Assembly: GCA_006226965.1 (NCBI GenBank)
Contig: SBGQ01000178.1
Span: 1 to 32,678, forward strand
Source of the DNA: a bacterium
Lineage (GTDB): Bacteria > Bacteroidota > Rhodothermia > Balneolales > M1805
Reading direction: 5' to 3'
DNA length: 32,678 nucleotides
Positions 944 to 30,203 of this stretch are shown piece by piece (position 1 is the stretch's first letter; each line of letters begins with the position of its first letter). Both the position numbers and the translations under genes were made by a program. The notes beneath the pieces are model-generated. The model worked only from the letters and a program-made list of their open reading frames with translations. It did no database searches and had not been told where the DNA came from.

Positions 944-3250
944 ATGAAAGCATTTTTAATTTTCTTGTTCTTGATTTCCCTTTTTATCGAGAGTTCAGCA
1001 CAACAACAAACTATTTCAGGAACAGTTAAAGACGCTCTTTCTTTGGAAGGTCTGCCCGGAGCAAACGTTTCTTTACAACCCGGAAATTACGGAGCGGCAA
1101 CTGACTTAGACGGTAATTTCAAACTCACAAACATTCCTTACGGACGCTATACCGTAACCGTCAGTTTTGTCGGGTTTCAATCTAAAGTTTTACAAGCTGT
1201 TGAAGTTAATTCTGCCAAACAAGTGATCTTAGAATTTCTGCTCGAAGAAGAAGTCTATACTTCGGAAGGCATAACCATAACAGCGCAACCCAACCGCGCT
1301 GAAGTACAAAATTTATTCACGCAAGTGAGTGCAATTTCGTTTTCTGTTGAAGAAACCCGACGTTTTGCAGGAGCAATGGACGATCCTCTGCGTGCTGCGG
1401 CAGTTTTCCCGGGTGTTGTTCAAAGTGGTGATGTAAACTCAAACGGAATCGTTGTTCGGGGAAATTCTCCCAAAGGGTTGCAATGGCGCTTAAACGGTGT
1501 ACGTATTCCCAACCCGAATCACTTTGGAAATGTAGGGCGTTCTGATGGCGGTGTAACTTTGTTTTCAACGCAATTATTGGCTAATTCTGACTTCCTCACT
1601 TCGGCTTTTCCTGCTGAATACGGAAATGCAAGCAGCGGTATTTTCGATATTCGCTACCGAAAAGGAAACGCTAATCAACGTGAGCACACCGTTCAGGTTG
1701 GCATTAACGGTATTGACTTGGCAACCGAGGGTCCGCTCGGTTCCGGAGGTTCATCATCCTATCTGATTAACTACCGATATTCCATTTTTGGCTTTTTGCA
1801 ATACATAGAACCCGATATGAAAGGAAAAGTACCGCAATATCAGGATGTGAATTTTCAGTTTGATTGGCAAACTGAGAAATGGGGAAATTTCACGTTTTTC
1901 GGTGTAGGCGGTATGGATGAATCCTCAGCAAAACCGGAGCCGGATGGTGATTTCACCCTAGAGGAACGCATGGATCAACGCTTAGATAACAATGTTGGCG
2001 TTTTAGGTTTACAACACAGTTACAGTTTATCAAAACGTGCTGCATTACAAACAACCTTAAGTTTTGTAGGCAGACAAGTTGATTTTCGTGATGGAATGCG
2101 CGACTCAGTTTTTACCTATCAACCCTTGAGTAATGTGAGTCAGTTAAATTACACTTGGGCAATAGAACAATCCGTAACTCAAAAACTGTTTGAACATGGT
2201 TTGATGCAAATCGGTTACCGCGCTGCTTTAGACGGTTTCGAAACAACCATAAGCGAAACTTTAACACAGCAAAACGGCTTGGAATCCATAGCCGATGACA
2301 ACGGAACTACTCAAAATCTTGAAACGTATATCCAAACCAAATGGAATCTGAGTCCGCAATTGAGCATAAATACGGGCATTCATTCTATGTATTATCGTTT
2401 AACAGATTCGTTTACTTTAGAACCAAGAATCTCTGCTAAGTATCTGTTCACAAACGGAAACTCATTTGCTTTGGCCTACGGTAACCACGCTCAGTTAGAA
2501 GATATTTCTGTCTATTCGATGAATCTTAACGGCGCTTCAAACTCCGATTTAAAACCCGGACGAGCTCATCATTTTTCAAGTACTTACAGTTTTGGTTTAA
2601 GTGATAATCTTCATGCGCAGGTAGATGCGTATTATCAGTATTTATATGACATTCCGATTGTTTTTGGGTCTTATAAATCTCTTATTAATCATGCTGGCGG
2701 AGTTGTAACCGATTCGTATATCAACAACGGGAAAACCTACTCTTATGGTCTTGAATTGATGATTGAGCACTTTTTCAAAACCGATTATTACTATTTGACA
2801 ACGGTTTCCTGGAATAACAGTCGTTACCGTGACGGCAGCGATATTTGGAGAACGAGTCGCTATTCTTCAGGACTTACGTTAACCGCATTAGGAGGAAAAG
2901 AATGGCGTTTCACAGAAAATAACAGTCTTAGTTTGAACATTCGCGCTACGCATACTTTAGGCGAATATTACATTCCTGTCGATGTGAGTGCTTCGAAACA
3001 AGCCGGTGTAGAGGTGATGAATGCGAATACTGTTTATCAAGAGCGTCTGCCAAACTTTATTTATGTGGATTTTTCTCTCGGATATAAATCGAACTATGCG
3101 AAATCTTCCGGCGAATGGAGCATTCAAATTAAAAATATGCTCAATCAGCGTCCGATAATTGGTTATTCGTACAACTCGGTAACCGAAACTGTTGAAGAAA
3201 TGAAACCGCTTGGAATTATTCCGATTCTGGCTTACCGCTATAATTTTTAA
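944..3250 (+). CDS. TonB-dependent outer-membrane receptor with carboxypeptidase-regulatory-like domain
   Basis: This is a 768-residue outer-membrane receptor. Residues 1-19 are a signal peptide ending SSA before QQQ. Residues about 22-108 form a CarboxypepD_reg-like beta-sandwich (GLPGANVSLQPG, then TDLDGNFKLTNIPYGRYTV). A plug domain follows (about 130-230, with VVRGNSPKGLQWRLNGV), and the rest is a beta-barrel of alternating aromatic strands ending in YRYNF, a typical outer-membrane C-terminus. Such receptors import a ligand with energy from TonB-ExbBD. It is shorter than SusC-type receptors and has no SusD partner nearby, so glycan uptake is not indicated; the substrate is unknown. A heptad-repeat element begins 3 bp after its stop codon, and I see no intrinsic terminator. 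Confidence 0.88.
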   Translation: MKAFLIFLFLISLFIESSAQQQTISGTVKDALSLEGLPGANVSLQPGNYGAATDLDGNFKLTNIPYGRYTVTVSFVGFQSKVLQAVEVNSAKQVILEFLLEEEVYTSEGITITAQPNRAEVQNLFTQVSAISFSVEETRRFAGAMDDPLRAAAVFPGVVQSGDVNSNGIVVRGNSPKGLQWRLNGVRIPNPNHFGNVGRSDGGVTLFSTQLLANSDFLTSAFPAEYGNASSGIFDIRYRKGNANQREHTVQVGINGIDLATEGPLGSGGSSSYLINYRYSIFGFLQYIEPDMKGKVPQYQDVNFQFDWQTEKWGNFTFFGVGGMDESSAKPEPDGDFTLEERMDQRLDNNVGVLGLQHSYSLSKRAALQTTLSFVGRQVDFRDGMRDSVFTYQPLSNVSQLNYTWAIEQSVTQKLFEHGLMQIGYRAALDGFETTISETLTQQNGLESIADDNGTTQNLETYIQTKWNLSPQLSINTGIHSMYYRLTDSFTLEPRISAKYLFTNGNSFALAYGNHAQLEDISVYSMNLNGASNSDLKPGRAHHFSSTYSFGLSDNLHAQVDAYYQYLYDIPIVFGSYKSLINHAGGVVTDSYINNGKTYSYGLELMIEHFFKTDYYYLTTVSWNNSRYRDGSDIWRTSRYSSGLTLTALGGKEWRFTENNSLSLNIRATHTLGEYYIPVDVSASKQAGVEVMNANTVYQERLPNFIYVDFSLGYKSNYAKSSGEWSIQIKNMLNQRPIIGYSYNSVTETVEEMKPLGIIPILAYRYNF

Positions 3251-3253
3251 AAA

Positions 3254-3309
3254 GGTATATGGTGTAAGGTGTAAGGTGTAAGGAGTATGGAGTATGGGGT
3301 ATGGAGTAT
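3254..3309 (+). repeat. Tandem heptads GGTGTAA / GGAGTAT (8 units)
   Basis: Eight consecutive 7-bp units share the pattern GGNNTAW. They are the left arm of composite element copy 1 and begin 3 bp after the upstream stop codon. Confidence 0.85.
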
Positions 3310-3357
3310 TCAGGTTCTAAATCAACAATCAGCCATCAGCCATTTCTAAAATCCGAC
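3254..3357 (+). repeat. Composite heptad-repeat element, copy 1
   Basis: Eight 7-bp units lie in perfect register at 3254-3309: GGTATAT, GGTGTAA three times, GGAGTAT twice, GGGGTAT, GGAGTAT. After a short joint comes a right arm with CAGCCAT units (about 3328-3343), then TTTCTAAAATCCGAC. The right arm nearly matches the reverse complement of 5976-6025. It sits between the TonB receptor stop and the methyltransferase start, reading left arm to right arm on +. Further similar CCGCAATCC bases run toward 3370. Confidence 0.8.
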
Positions 3358-3385
3358 GCCCGCAATCCAACTTCCTAAATTTGCC

Positions 3386-5578: not shown

Positions 5579-5968
5579 ATGGAAATTACGATTACAACCC
5601 CGGCCCTTCTTTTCCCTGCCATTTCACTACTCTTACTTGCCTACACAAACCGGTTTTTAACTATTTCTAATTTGATTCGCACGCTCCACGCTAAATACAA
5701 AACCGATCCGGCGGAGCAATATCTCAATCAAATCAAAAACCTCCGCATTCGTGTTCATTTGATTAAAAACATGCAGCTTTTAGGAATTTCATCACTTTTA
5801 CTGAGTGTAATTTGTATGCTTTCTTTGTTTATGGGATGGATTATTGCCGGAAAATGGTTGCTTGCAATCAGTCTGACTTTACTTGCTGTTTCTTTAGGAT
5901 TTACGATTCGTGAAGTTCAGATTTCCGGACATGCTTTGGAAATTCAGTTAAGCGATATGGACCAGTAG
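5579..5968 (+). CDS. DUF2721 family membrane protein
   Basis: This is a 129-residue integral membrane protein. A first hydrophobic segment with the family signature TTPALLFPAISLLLLAYTNR (about 6-25) is followed by a cytoplasmic-type stretch (LIRTLHAKYK to LRIRVHLIKN). Two more hydrophobic helices lie at about 64-87 and 91-109, then a short hydrophilic tail. This matches the small DUF2721 family, whose function is not known. The ATG at 5579 follows a candidate promoter. The TAG stop at 5966-5968 runs directly into the heptad-repeat element, and a DNA glycosylase gene converges from the other side. Confidence 0.8.
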   Translation: MEITITTPALLFPAISLLLLAYTNRFLTISNLIRTLHAKYKTDPAEQYLNQIKNLRIRVHLIKNMQLLGISSLLLSVICMLSLFMGWIIAGKWLLAISLTLLAVSLGFTIREVQISGHALEIQLSDMDQ

Positions 5969-6081
5969 ATGTCGGATGTCGGATTTTAGAAATGGCTGAT
6001 GGCTGATTGTTGATGGTTGATTTAAAACCTCCATACTCCATACTCCATACTCCATACTCCTTAAACCTTAAACCATTCTCC
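5966..6081 (-). repeat. Composite heptad-repeat element, copy 2 (reverse orientation)
   Basis: Read on +, it begins at the TAG stop codon with ATGTCGG twice (5969-5982), then TTTTAGAAATGGCTGATGG and TTGATGGTTGAT-type units. It ends with seven in-register heptads at 6033-6081: ATACTCC four times, TTAAACC twice, ATTCTCC. On the minus strand this is the same left-arm-to-right-arm order as copy 1, and the 50 bp of right arm are nearly identical. It fills the gap between two converging genes; the glycosylase stop lies 9 bp beyond it. Confidence 0.82.
6033..6081 (-). repeat. Tandem heptads ATACTCC / TTAAACC (7 units)
   Basis: Seven consecutive 7-bp units. On the minus strand they read GGAGAAT, GGTTTAA twice and GGAGTAT four times, so they belong to the same GGN5 class as copy 1. 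Confidence 0.85.
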
Positions 6082-6090
6082 TTACTATCT

Positions 6091-7038
6091 CTATTTTCCG
6101 CGCCTTTTCTTCTCTCTCACCAAATAATTGATATACATAAACTCAATCGCCAAAGACTCATACCCTTTCCAACGGTGAATCAATTGTTGAAAATCCTGCT
6201 CTGAAATTTCATCTGGATTTGCGCCATAACTCAAAGAAATCCATCGTCTGAGCGCCTTTTCCATGCCTTTATCTTTATTAGACGGAAATACACAATCCGT
6301 TCTTGAACGAAAAATCATAATATCCTGCGCTGAGGTCGGGCCGATACCGCGCACTTTCGTAATGGTATCATAAAACACTTGCGGTTCACAGTTTTCCAAC
6401 TCATCCAAATTCATAGTTCCGGAAACTATATCCTGCGCAAAACCAACTACATATTCGCCTTTTCGAAGTGATAAACCGTACTTTTTCATATTCATGGGGT
6501 CACCGCTCATCAATTGTTGCGGAGTCGGCCAACTGGCGATTAATCCGTCTTCGTGCGGAATCATGGTTCCGTATCCGGAGCGAACTCCGTACACCATTTT
6601 TTTAGCTGTAGGTTTATGCGAAATCTGAGTTTGTATAATTCTGTTGATGGTATCCTCAAAAATAGTGGCACGTGTCATGCGTTTAAAACCGTAAAAATCG
6701 AGCATCAAGGAACCTAAAACCGGATCGTCTTGCGCCTGCTCCATCAAGGGTTTTAAATCAATTTGTGTTCCCAATATTCTGGCAAGCTGCTTATTCGCTT
6801 CATCGATTTCGTTTTTCGATACATCTGAAGTCGTCCGAATATCAAACACCGGATTTTCGGGATCACCGTTAAACATCACAGTAAAAATAAAATCTTTGTC
6901 ATTCACTCTAAGTGGTCTCGTAAACCCTTGATCAGCAATAGTTTCTATCTGATGTTCAAAATCGAAATAATCATCAGCATCCAAACAAAGGAAAAAATCG
7001 TGTGGTGCAATGGATTTTAATTGCCAGCGAGTTGACAT
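6091..7038 (-). CDS. DNA-3-methyladenine glycosylase II-like (AlkA/HhH-GPD family)
   Basis: This is a 315-residue base-excision repair enzyme of the HhH-GPD superfamily. The N-terminal 90 residues resemble the AlkA N-domain. The helical core has the FEDTINRIIQTQIS helix (127-140) and the helix-hairpin-helix KVRGIGPTSAQDIMIF (228-243), followed by the loop CVFPSNKDKGMEKALRRW. The catalytic aspartate is probably D256; it sits one residue later than in the usual FPxxDLG pattern, implying a one-residue loop insertion. The expected reaction is excision of alkylated purines. The KKRRGK tail is strongly basic. Its 3' end abuts the heptad-repeat element and it has no recognisable terminator. Confidence 0.8.
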   Translation of the reverse strand: MSTRWQLKSIAPHDFFLCLDADDYFDFEHQIETIADQGFTRPLRVNDKDFIFTVMFNGDPENPVFDIRTTSDVSKNEIDEANKQLARILGTQIDLKPLMEQAQDDPVLGSLMLDFYGFKRMTRATIFEDTINRIIQTQISHKPTAKKMVYGVRSGYGTMIPHEDGLIASWPTPQQLMSGDPMNMKKYGLSLRKGEYVVGFAQDIVSGTMNLDELENCEPQVFYDTITKVRGIGPTSAQDIMIFRSRTDCVFPSNKDKGMEKALRRWISLSYGANPDEISEQDFQQLIHRWKGYESLAIEFMYINYLVREKKRRGK

Positions 7039-25807: not shown

Positions 25808-25954
25808 GGTTGGTTGGTTGATGTATATGTATAAAACTGAGTAATAAACCTCTAAAGAATGCTGACAATACGATTTGAACGCACTTTTTGCAAGCATTTT
25901 TTTTGATTAATACGGATTGTTTTCACTTGATGGGGATTTTTGAAAAGGTGTAAA

Positions 25955-26038
25955 GGTTTCAGGTTTGAGGTTTCAGGTTTGAGGTTTCAGGTTTGAGGCT
26001 TGAGGCTTGAGGCTTGAGGCTTGAGGCTTGAGGAGTAT
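25955..26038 (+). repeat. Tandem heptads GGTTTCA / GGTTTGA / GGCTTGA (12 units)
   Basis: Twelve consecutive units without a break in register. The first six alternate between two variants, giving a 14-bp higher-order period; the next five are identical GGCTTGA and the last is GGAGTAT, the unit seen in copies 1 and 2. Confidence 0.9.
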
Positions 26039-26101
26039 GCGAAATTCAGTAGTAAGCATTCAGCATTCAGATATTGTTCAGGTTTTCCAAATCAAAATCT
26101 G

Positions 26102-26164
26102 CCATCAACCATCAACCATCAACCATCAACCATCAACCATCAACCATCAACCATCTACCATCAA
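26102..26164 (+). repeat. Tandem heptads CCATCAA (9 units)
   Basis: Seven CCATCAA, one CCATCTA and one more CCATCAA, all in register. On the minus strand the unit is GGTTGAT. The same unit occurs twice in copy 4 and singly in copies 1 and 2. Confidence 0.9.
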
Positions 26165-26299
26165 CAATTTCCGAAATCCGATTCGAAGCACAGCGTAGAA
26201 CCGCGAAGCGAAATCAAACATCTTCCGTCAATTCTTCATAATTCATCAAATTGGAATAACTTTTGAAAGCAGTTCATCAGAATAAACAAAAAGGAAACT

Positions 26300-28183: not shown

Positions 28184-29167
28184 ATGAAAATATTGTATGG
28201 CATCCAAGGAACCGGACACGGACACGTAAGCAGGGCACGTGAAATTCTCCCTGCATTAATGGAAAACTACGATGTTGATATTCTGATTAGCGGTTATAAT
28301 TCCAAATTACATATTGAGCAACCCATTAAATATCGTTGCAAAGGCATCAGTTTTATTTACGGTCACGGTGGTATTTCGTTGTCTAAATCCTTGCGGGAAC
28401 TCAATTTGATTCAATATTTGCGTGATACGGTTAATCTGAATGTGAGCGATTATGATTTAGTGATTTCAGATTTTGAACCGGTAACGGCTTGGGCGGCACG
28501 CATCAAAAAAGTGCCTTCGTTGAGTATGAGTCACCAATCGGCATTTGCATCCGATAAAACTCCGCGTCCTGACAAAGTTTCGCGAATCGCTGAAATGGTA
28601 ATGAAACACTATGCACCTTGCGACCAATCCATTGCGTTCCATTTCGAACAGTACGACGATTTTATTATGCCGCCGATTATTCGCGAGGAGGTTCGCCGTT
28701 TAAAACCTTATGTCGGCAACCATGTAACGGTGTATTTACCGGCATTTTCAGAGCAATTGTTAATTGATGTATTCGGAAAACTGAAACAACGCGAATGGCA
28801 TATTTTTAGCCCTTCTATTACTGAAAGAAAGCGTATCGGAAACATGATTCTAATTCCGGTAAACAATCAGGAATTTCTAAGCAGCTTGGAAGGCAGCGAA
28901 GGTTTAATTACCTCTGCCGGTTTTGAAGCTTGTGCGGAAGCTATGTATTTGGGAAAAAAATTACTCACTATTCCTATTCAACATCAATATGAGCAATATT
29001 GTAATGCTGCTGCGCTCAAAAAAATGGGTATTACGGTTATTCCAAAAATCTCCAATACCATGATTGAGAAAATTAATGCCTGGGTTGAATACGATGAAAT
29101 GATTCCGCTTCCGAATTATTCAACAGCACATGATGTTATTGCAAAAATGAAGCAGATGTTTGCTTAG
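28184..29167 (+). CDS. Glycosyltransferase family protein (GT-B, MurG/PF13528-like)
   Basis: This is a 327-residue GT-B fold enzyme. The N-terminal KILYGIQGTGHGHVSRAREILPAL loop is typical of this group, which resembles MurG and UGT-type transferases. The C-terminal half carries the sugar-nucleotide site region (SSLEGSEGLITSAGFEACAEAMYLGKKLLTIPIQHQYEQ), again MurG-like. It probably transfers a sugar to a lipid or other acceptor at the inner membrane. It is coupled in an operon with the LpxH-like phosphatase, which suggests glycolipid or lipid A-related work. The TAG stop at 29165-29167 flows directly into twelve ATGTCGG heptads. Confidence 0.83.
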   Translation: MKILYGIQGTGHGHVSRAREILPALMENYDVDILISGYNSKLHIEQPIKYRCKGISFIYGHGGISLSKSLRELNLIQYLRDTVNLNVSDYDLVISDFEPVTAWAARIKKVPSLSMSHQSAFASDKTPRPDKVSRIAEMVMKHYAPCDQSIAFHFEQYDDFIMPPIIREEVRRLKPYVGNHVTVYLPAFSEQLLIDVFGKLKQREWHIFSPSITERKRIGNMILIPVNNQEFLSSLEGSEGLITSAGFEACAEAMYLGKKLLTIPIQHQYEQYCNAAALKKMGITVIPKISNTMIEKINAWVEYDEMIPLPNYSTAHDVIAKMKQMFA

Positions 29168-29339
29168 ATGTCGGATGTCGGATGTCGGATGTCGGATGTC
29201 GGATGTCGGATGTCGGATGTCGGATGTCGGATGTCGGATGTCGGATGTCGGATTGTAGAAATTTTTGATGGTTGATGGCAGATTTTTGATTTGGAAAATC
29301 TGAAACTTGAATGCAGAATGCTTAAACTGAATTCTCCTC
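29165..29339 (-). repeat. Composite heptad-repeat element, copy 4 (reverse orientation)
   Basis: Read on +: the TAG stop of the glycosyltransferase, ATGTCGG twelve times (29168-29251), a TTGTAGAAATTTTTGATGG joint, two TTGATGG units (from 29265), the core shared with copy 3 (GGAAAA at 29293-29298; ATGCAGAATGC at about 29311-29321), and ending GAATTCTCCTC. The final part overlaps the last codons of the converging gene. On the minus strand the module order equals copy 3, but the left-arm heptads are reduced to GAGGAG. Confidence 0.85.
29168..29251 (-). repeat. Tandem heptads ATGTCGG (12 identical units)
   Basis: 84 bp of perfect tandem repeats start on the base after a stop codon. The same unit occurs twice at 5969-5982, also directly after a TAG stop. 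On the minus strand it reads CCGACAT. Confidence 0.95.
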
Positions 29340-30203
29340 AACTCTTAGCGCAACTTCGAGCTTTTTTAACTTTTCGATTAGTTGTCGGCGTATTAATACC
29401 CCTTGTTGATACAATTTCTTTTGTTCGCGAACATATTCTTCTGCGCCTTCTTTTGTCTCGATAGGAATATTGATTTCACCCAAACCGGAAACATCGTACG
29501 GACTCGCTTTCATATCAATCCAACGCGCGTTCCAGGCTAAATCAAACGCTTCCCAAATAGTTTCGGAATCAATCCACGGATAAAATTTAAAAGCCCAACG
29601 GTAAACATCCATATTCGTATGAATGCATCCTCCCTGCTCCATTTCCGGCATTTCAGGCTTTGTCAATTGATACGCATTTAAAGGTTTTGCAGGTTGAGTA
29701 AAAAATCGGAACGCATCATAATGTGTGCAGCGAATCGGGCGGGATTCCACAAAACGTTGTGTGGCTTCGGGACTGAGTCGCAAAGGTAATTTGTGACGTT
29801 TGTCGGTTTCTTCTTTGTACACCATTGCCCACTCGTGCATACCCAAACAGCCAAATTGTGGTTCATGCTCCTGCGTTTTTTCGAGCATGTCAATCAACCA
29901 AAGTAAAGAATGAAAACGGTGCGATGGAAACTGACGTAAATCCATCATCCAAGAATCACCGGTATCAACAAAAAGAGATTCGTTTGGAATTTCTTTGCAA
30001 TCTTTGTCCAGCTTTACATCAAATCCCGCAGAAAAACGCTCGAGAAGTCCCGGGCGAAACGAATAATAATCAAACAAGAAATCTATTGCAGGATGTTTAG
30101 CTCCGGCTTCCCGTTTATCCAAATACAATGAAAGCCGTTCTTTTACTCGGTTTTCATGAGCTAATTTTCGTTCGTAAAATTCGGATGCGTTTAATCGTTG
30201 CAC
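29322..30203 (-). CDS. Conserved protein of unknown function (family sometimes labelled 3-methyladenine DNA glycosylase)
   Basis: The 293 residues match a family I know from Actinobacteria and Bacteroidota by the strings HPAIDFLFDYYSFRP (about 37-51) and RPIRCTHYDAFRFFTQPAKPLN. Other blocks that look conserved are FGCLGMHEWAMVYK, RHKLPLRLS and EQGGCIHTNMDVYRWAFKFYPW. Database entries often call it 3-methyladenine DNA glycosylase, but I see neither a helix-hairpin-helix nor an AAG-type fold signature. The many His, Cys, Asp and Glu in those blocks would suit a metal enzyme, which is inference. It starts at GTG (30203), the only good start after an in-frame stop. The last codons (EENSV and TAA) fall within repeat element copy 4. 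Confidence 0.72.
   Translation of the reverse strand: MQRLNASEFYERKLAHENRVKERLSLYLDKREAGAKHPAIDFLFDYYSFRPGLLERFSAGFDVKLDKDCKEIPNESLFVDTGDSWMMDLRQFPSHRFHSLLWLIDMLEKTQEHEPQFGCLGMHEWAMVYKEETDKRHKLPLRLSPEATQRFVESRPIRCTHYDAFRFFTQPAKPLNAYQLTKPEMPEMEQGGCIHTNMDVYRWAFKFYPWIDSETIWEAFDLAWNARWIDMKASPYDVSGLGEINIPIETKEGAEEYVREQKKLYQQGVLIRRQLIEKLKKLEVALRVEENSV

Follow-up and report, generated by a model that had tools for sequence, protein, structure and literature searches.

The question raised by this locus is why two unrelated genes should each end in a TAG stop codon exactly where a tandem array of the heptad ATGTCGG begins. Both genes lie in the window, by which we mean the whole stretch of 32,678 nucleotides that was analyzed. 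The preliminary description of this DNA offered two readings of the shared junction: either the end of the element includes the TAG and so creates the stop codon, or insertion targets stop codons. The junction itself is exact. Within the window, TAGATGTCGG is present at 5966-5975 and 29165-29174 and at no third site (the mean in 100 shuffles is 0.04), and at both places the TAG is the in-frame stop of the upstream open reading frame, which encodes a DUF2721 protein in one case and a glycosyltransferase in the other. We argue below that heptad arrays lying flush with stop codons probably belong, as arms, to a family of small intergenic elements that fit between genes, some of which carry a gene for the 23S-rRNA-intervening-sequence protein (IVP; PF05635, a four-helix bundle).

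The glycosyltransferase gene (28184..29167, plus strand) encodes 327 amino acids, matches PF13528 (E 7.2e-41) and stops with the TAG at 29165-29167. The array that follows, (GATGTCG)12.4 at 29167..29253 on the plus strand, is the G-rich left arm of the element, and its first G is also the final base of the glycosyltransferase stop. All 12.4 copies are perfect (TRF match 100%, score 174). The remainder of this composite element (ATTGTAGAAATTTTTGATGGTTGATGGCAGATTTTTGATTTGG...GAATGC, 29252..29321, plus strand) is 95% identical to the typed consensus across 61 bases and reaches the stop of a convergent gene (29322..30203, minus strand), whose TTA at 29322-29324 adjoins the right end of the element and for which a Pfam search returned zero matches. 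Within the element, GC skew switches from +0.64 to -1.0. The DUF2721 gene (5579..5968, plus strand; PF11026, E 1.5e-36; TAG stop at 5966-5968) is followed by a second element (5968..6090, plus strand) composed of two ATGTCGG units, ATTTTAGAAAT, TGATGGC/TGATGGT units, and then CTCCATA and CCTTAAA units. It occupies the spacer, except for a few bases, up to the stop of another convergent gene at 6091. In both the 5968 and the 29167 copies, the element takes up the whole, or almost the whole, of the spacer separating two convergent genes.

Two more copies are present in the window, both on the minus strand. The third (3251..3370) has its C-rich right end adjoining the TAA stop of a gene at 944-3250. 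The fourth (25944..26190) lies away from any stop codon, in a divergent spacer between genes for DAHP synthase and a DnaJ-type protein, and is made up on the plus strand of approximately nine CCATCAA and ten AGGCTTG-type units. The IVP gene is absent from the window copies. Their predicted folds are no better than those of shuffles (z-scores of +1.87, -0.26 and +1.04, and of +0.05 and -1.25 on the other strand), and by these scores the stable hairpin followed by a T run that marks an intrinsic terminator is lacking on both strands.

The same composite structure is dispersed across the genome (3.78 Mb in 184 contigs), where the array runs into a unit consisting of ATTTTAGAAATTTTTGATGGTTGATGGCAGATTTTTGATTT plus C-rich heptads, CTCCTTA and ACACCTT among them. 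The core is found at 27 genome sites with at most 3 mismatches, compared with 0 for a reversed-pattern control, and a genome search with the 73-base consensus returned 54 pieces at E-values up to 10. Every one of the 14 genome matches to HNATGTCGGATGTCGG reads (A/T)GATGTCGG, although 3 of these matches are restarts within an array past a mutated unit. The longer junction string TAGATGTCGGATGTCGG is found in the whole genome only at the two window junctions, so the TAG form is not typical. Among 128 genomes of the order, the ATGTCGG-type core pattern, which is silent on other heptads, was found in this genome only. Contigs such as C14, C20, C34, C54, C56, C62, C65, C70 and C73 terminate within ATGTCGG arrays; the assembly therefore breaks at long arrays, and the left ends concerned are unreadable. 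Another kind of repeat that is likewise dispersed and intergenic, resembling CTTCACGAAACGTGAA and CCCGTGAATACGGG, lies behind the left module at five loci (L061, L065, L069, L105 and L118).

The preliminary description called for the junctions between elements and genes to be gathered across the genome, and most copies turn out not to lie far from stop codons. Left ends were set by a fixed rule, genes were called with a dicodon model, and array ends lost at contig ends (four merged rows) were excluded from the count. Among 25 readable array starts with an upstream gene in the same direction, 23 are located between -2 and +7 nt from the stop of that gene (8 at -2, 5 at -1, 3 at 0, 3 at +1, and 4 at +3 to +7). 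One of the two exceptions (L121) begins 62 nt past the stop, immediately downstream of a T run that itself follows a hairpin-like stretch. At the other (L118), which is counted in the 25, the upstream gene was mis-assigned and a minus-strand gene overlaps the junction. Six further starts face minus-strand genes, and one locus (L113) has weak gene calls only. A core-free scan of a sample from the same genome gave a similar picture, with 7 of 12 same-direction arrays at most 6 nt from a stop versus 0.7 expected. The other five lie at 16-40 nt and look by eye like later modules belonging to elements that have their own start or end at a stop; the gene upstream of a further nine arrays was on the minus strand.

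The identity of the stop codon is also biased at these junctions. The 23 tight junctions comprise 10 TGA, 6 TAG and 7 TAA stops, versus 42 TGA, 42 TAG and 190 TAA stops among 274 sampled genes, such that TGA and TAG together are enriched (16/23 versus 84/274, p = 0.0003). The last one or two bases of the stop are in register with the array in 13 of the 23 cases (T^GATG, TA^GATG and close variants, where the caret marks the boundary), of which 8 read T^GA and 5 read TA^G. A junction specific to TAG was rejected, given that the exact form occurs only twice in the genome and that TGA is commoner among the tight junctions.

Comparisons with related proteins bear on the proposal that the element supplies the TAG and thereby creates the stop. 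Where this could be tested, the stop sits at its native position. An enoyl-CoA-hydratase-type protein (ECH, L117) has the same final residue in 29 of 29 relatives from the order, and HisB does so in 28 of 29. In 22 of 28 relatives the end of HemF differs by no more than one residue (7 with the same end, 14 ending one residue earlier and 1 ending one later), with the remaining 6 ending two to ten residues later; 28 of the 29 loci were compared, the other being without a stop. A large C-terminal truncation by the element was rejected on the basis of these three proteins. The evidence from the glycosyltransferase, whose best matches in named records come from Balneolaceae and relatives, is weaker. 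This protein is one residue below the commonest homologue length (328 aa, 25 of 80), and its nine closest homologues, among the matches listed, are 7-17 residues longer, and therefore a small C-terminal change is neither supported nor excluded. The Pfam match of the DUF2721 protein extends to the end of the profile. The notion of a stop created by the element consequently fails for ECH, HisB and HemF, whose stops are native, and survives only in a narrower form: the identity of the stop tracks the array, and the part in register is the G of TAG or the GA of TGA.

Relatives in the order carry comparable arrays built from other heptads. At 100 loci from these relatives, a period of 7 yields 54 intergenic arrays, versus 0-7 for periods of 5, 6 and 8-11. 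Among the 30 G-rich arrays that have a same-direction upstream gene and two known neighbors, 25 start at most 6 nt after the stop, and some overlap it, whereas uniform placement would give 1.8 of 30; several of these arrays share a gene pair, and the sites are therefore not independent. A frequent junction is T^AGTC.TGAGTC, and TAG accounts for 17 of the 25 flush stops versus 116 of 419 in the background. Thirteen arrays that face a start codon were excluded from this test. Eight of them lie within 13 nt of the start, and the flush fit is therefore not confined to stops.

Some elements carry a gene between their arms. Among the loci examined in this genome there are two IVP genes, one between hisD and hisC (L120) and one beside polA (L034). 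At the former, the hisD stop reads T^GATGGCT(GATGTCG)n, followed by the IVP gene (PF05635, E 2e-18) and then by AAATCCG heptads that code the N-terminus of hisC. This element shares its (ATGTCGG)n left arm with the window arrays and has a C-rich right arm. At the latter, the IVP gene (E 1.9e-21) is accompanied by 8-mer arms reaching the stop of polA. In relatives, the spacer between the ECH and thiolase genes contains an IVP gene inside repeats at 10 of 29 loci by profile matches, and 3 of these 10 frames look broken (L268, L292 and L294). A Pfam check of the cargo at this site identified two IVPs and one DUF559 protein. A gene for DUF559, which is nuclease-like, occupies the position of the IVP gene at 2 of the 29 loci (L288 and L291), with flanks of the CCCCTCCTT...AAGGAGGGG type. 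At four others (L271, L272, L283 and L289), the right arm appears by eye to lengthen the thiolase N-terminus in frame by 21 nt, equal to three heptads (MT[HQ]DSRL...). When the arms at three loci were compared with shuffles, two exceeded all 300, and the third (L279) was equaled by 23 of 300. A locus in Solitalea, from a different order (Sphingobacteriales), by eye follows the same plan with another heptad. Because the window copies share the arm and plan of the IVP-bearing form, they may well descend from such elements.

Cyanobacteria are known for short tandemly repeated repetitive (STRR) heptanucleotides, which form tandem arrays between genes. A plasmid search for the IVP protein returned 28 records, 26 of them cyanobacterial. 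Twenty-one loci were fetched and 19 used, with the only fetched non-cyanobacterial loci (L308 and L317), which had no gene table, being excluded; L309 and L310 have near-identical neighbors and hence are not independent. An array of 7-mers occupies the spacer before the IVP gene at 15 of 19 loci, versus 5 of 20 other spacers from the same loci (p 0.0012), and the spacer after the gene at 8 of 15. G exceeds C in the left spacer at 17 of 19 loci and in the right spacer at 1 of 15. Inversion of the arms exceeds that in shuffles at 14 of 19 loci. Unlike STRR sequences as such, the heptads considered here adjoin IVP genes, mostly as inverted arms. The upstream gene runs in the same direction at 15 plasmid loci. 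The array begins from -24 to +6 nt relative to the stop of this gene at 10 of them and 32 and 113 nt away at 2 others, and the remaining 3 lack a lag-7 array on the left; since many of the left spacers measure just 27-73 nt, closeness to the stop is partly forced.

Three plasmid loci (L306, L309 and L311) encode IVP proteins that are approximately 79-83% identical and have similar arms, but their upstream and downstream genes are without similarity at E 0.001. Closely related units between unrelated neighbors imply that the unit moves. Separately, IVP genes lie within CRISPR operons at L298, L304 and L307, in the order cas6-IVP-cas4 twice and cas10-IVP-cmr3 once, and long 7-mer arrays precede the IVP gene in both cas6-IVP-cas4 loci. 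In predicted RNA folds of 25 full elements (17 of the 19 plasmid loci, the two from this genome and six from relatives), the arms pair more than in five shuffles in 16.

Taken together, the reading we favor, with somewhat better than even confidence, is that an intergenic element dispersed through the genome has the array as its left arm, that its full order is a G-rich tandem heptad arm, a small IVP gene and a usually inverted C-rich heptad arm, that its flush fit arises through survival, slippage and erosion, and that the window copies are IVP-less forms. Such an element runs from at or near the stop of a first gene to the start of a second, or to a convergent stop, and so neither gene is broken. 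Copies would survive only between coding sequences, where the arms would grow and shift through slippage while unconstrained flank is lost. The limit of this process would be the T of the stop codon, since the arm can supply the last two bases (T^GA, TA^G or T^AG).

The main rival to this erosion view is that stop codons, or the bases immediately after them, are the specific insertion target of the elements, perhaps in mRNA or DNA at T^AA, T^GA or TA^G with the involvement of reverse transcription, and that the element end restores the stop. We regard this as unlikely but worth serious attention. The position of 23 of 25 starts fits the earlier suggestion that insertion targets stop codons, as do the 13 junctions reading T^GA or TA^G, the T^AG junction in relatives despite their different heptad, and a left gap near zero where the right residue is long (these edges are rough, and some of the residue is other repeats). 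Reverse transcription is brought to mind by bAvd, a reverse-transcriptase partner that IVP resembles weakly, with E-values of 8.6e-5 and 2.9e-6 that are both under the curated cut-off. However, the junctions are not specific to TAG, all three stops occur, as do gaps of 0-7, one copy sits behind a terminator-like sequence, several face starts, and in relatives most start-facing arrays are close to the start codon. Of the features expected of MITEs or insertion sequences, inverted arms are present in most full forms, and no target-site duplication was noticed by eye at the examined elements. Because flank erosion limited by selection would produce the same flush geometry, targeting is not singled out by it.

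Perhaps insertion could occur anywhere between genes, with spacers so short that every site adjoins a stop. In 28 of 29 relatives, the distance from HisB to the next gene is -1 to 9 nt and an array is absent there, and spacers between same-direction genes in the sample have a median of 22 nt; both observations are in keeping with this idea. Nevertheless, if starts were spread uniformly over the residual spacer, 4.4 of 16 would be expected to fall within 4 nt, and 14 do (the right edges are rough, and several, at L115, L066, L064 and L046, are wrong by eye), and the excess in relatives described above, from sites that are not independent, points the same way. Moreover, four ECH-thiolase spacers with little or no element (L269, L273, L286 and L293) still measure 59-101 nt. 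Very short spacers as the sole cause were rejected through the uniform-placement tests in this genome and in relatives, and we consider the idea improbable. We give still less credence to a functional device at gene ends, such as a bidirectional, unstructured, C-rich terminator of the Rho type or an insulator. The switch in GC skew inside the element and the unstructured window copies would suit such a role, as would the hairpin and T run seen by eye, uncounted, in many longer convergent spacers that are free of the element. But elements are also found between same-direction genes and some carry a gene, and the combination of dispersal and IVP cargo speaks for a selfish element rather than a device.

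The nearest known relative of the erosion-shaped element we propose is the intervening sequence (IVS) of rRNA genes. Warrier et al. (2016, PMC4990558) describe an IVP-family ORF between complementary borders, called selfish or parasitic, that is cut out of the rRNA by RNase III; in a typical IVS this excision is not followed by ligation. The full elements likewise place a PF05635 ORF between borders that are complementary in most plasmid loci, in a transcribed place tolerating fragmentation. They differ in that all of the loci examined lie between protein genes, at stop or start codons, rather than in rRNA genes, in having arms of tandem heptads, and in that many copies, those in the window among them, are without an ORF. 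Since IVS borders are complementary and cut by RNase III in that account, and since the arms pair in most predicted folds of full elements, we infer an intercistronic counterpart of the IVS: the arms would pair in the transcript, and the element would live where fragmentation of mRNA is harmless.

Tandem 7-nt units between genes also recall the TAACTGA heptamers of Beggiatoaceae, Cyanobacteria and Bacteroidetes, which, according to MacGregor (2015, PMC4679880), are intergenic, lie mostly just before start codons, have no evident transfer mechanism, and are matched in some close relatives by shorter, repeat-free spacers. In contrast, the unit described here is ATGTCGG, which is stop-free on that strand, lies mostly at stops and is linked to IVP. 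A term count of the main text of that paper gives zero occurrences of "four helix", "S23" and "intervening", and among the open-license matches listed, titles, abstracts and term counts revealed no paper linking heptad repeats with IVP/S23 genes.

More tentatively, and with a little less than an even chance of being right, heptad repeats in Balneolales, other Bacteroidota and cyanobacteria might all be arms or remains of one widespread class of IVP-built mobile element that settles at the stop codon of a gene and completes it with its own first bases, which would let it persist unnoticed within operons. The findings offer a possible origin for intergenic heptanucleotide repeats and give IVP genes, known from rRNA inserts, a wider life. 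They predict that inverted heptads flank IVP genes and that transcripts would be cut at the arms, and also that closely related strains would differ by flush insertions with both neighboring proteins intact. These elements may also represent a natural experiment in how mobile DNA avoids doing harm, by placing its boundary at the point where translation stops.
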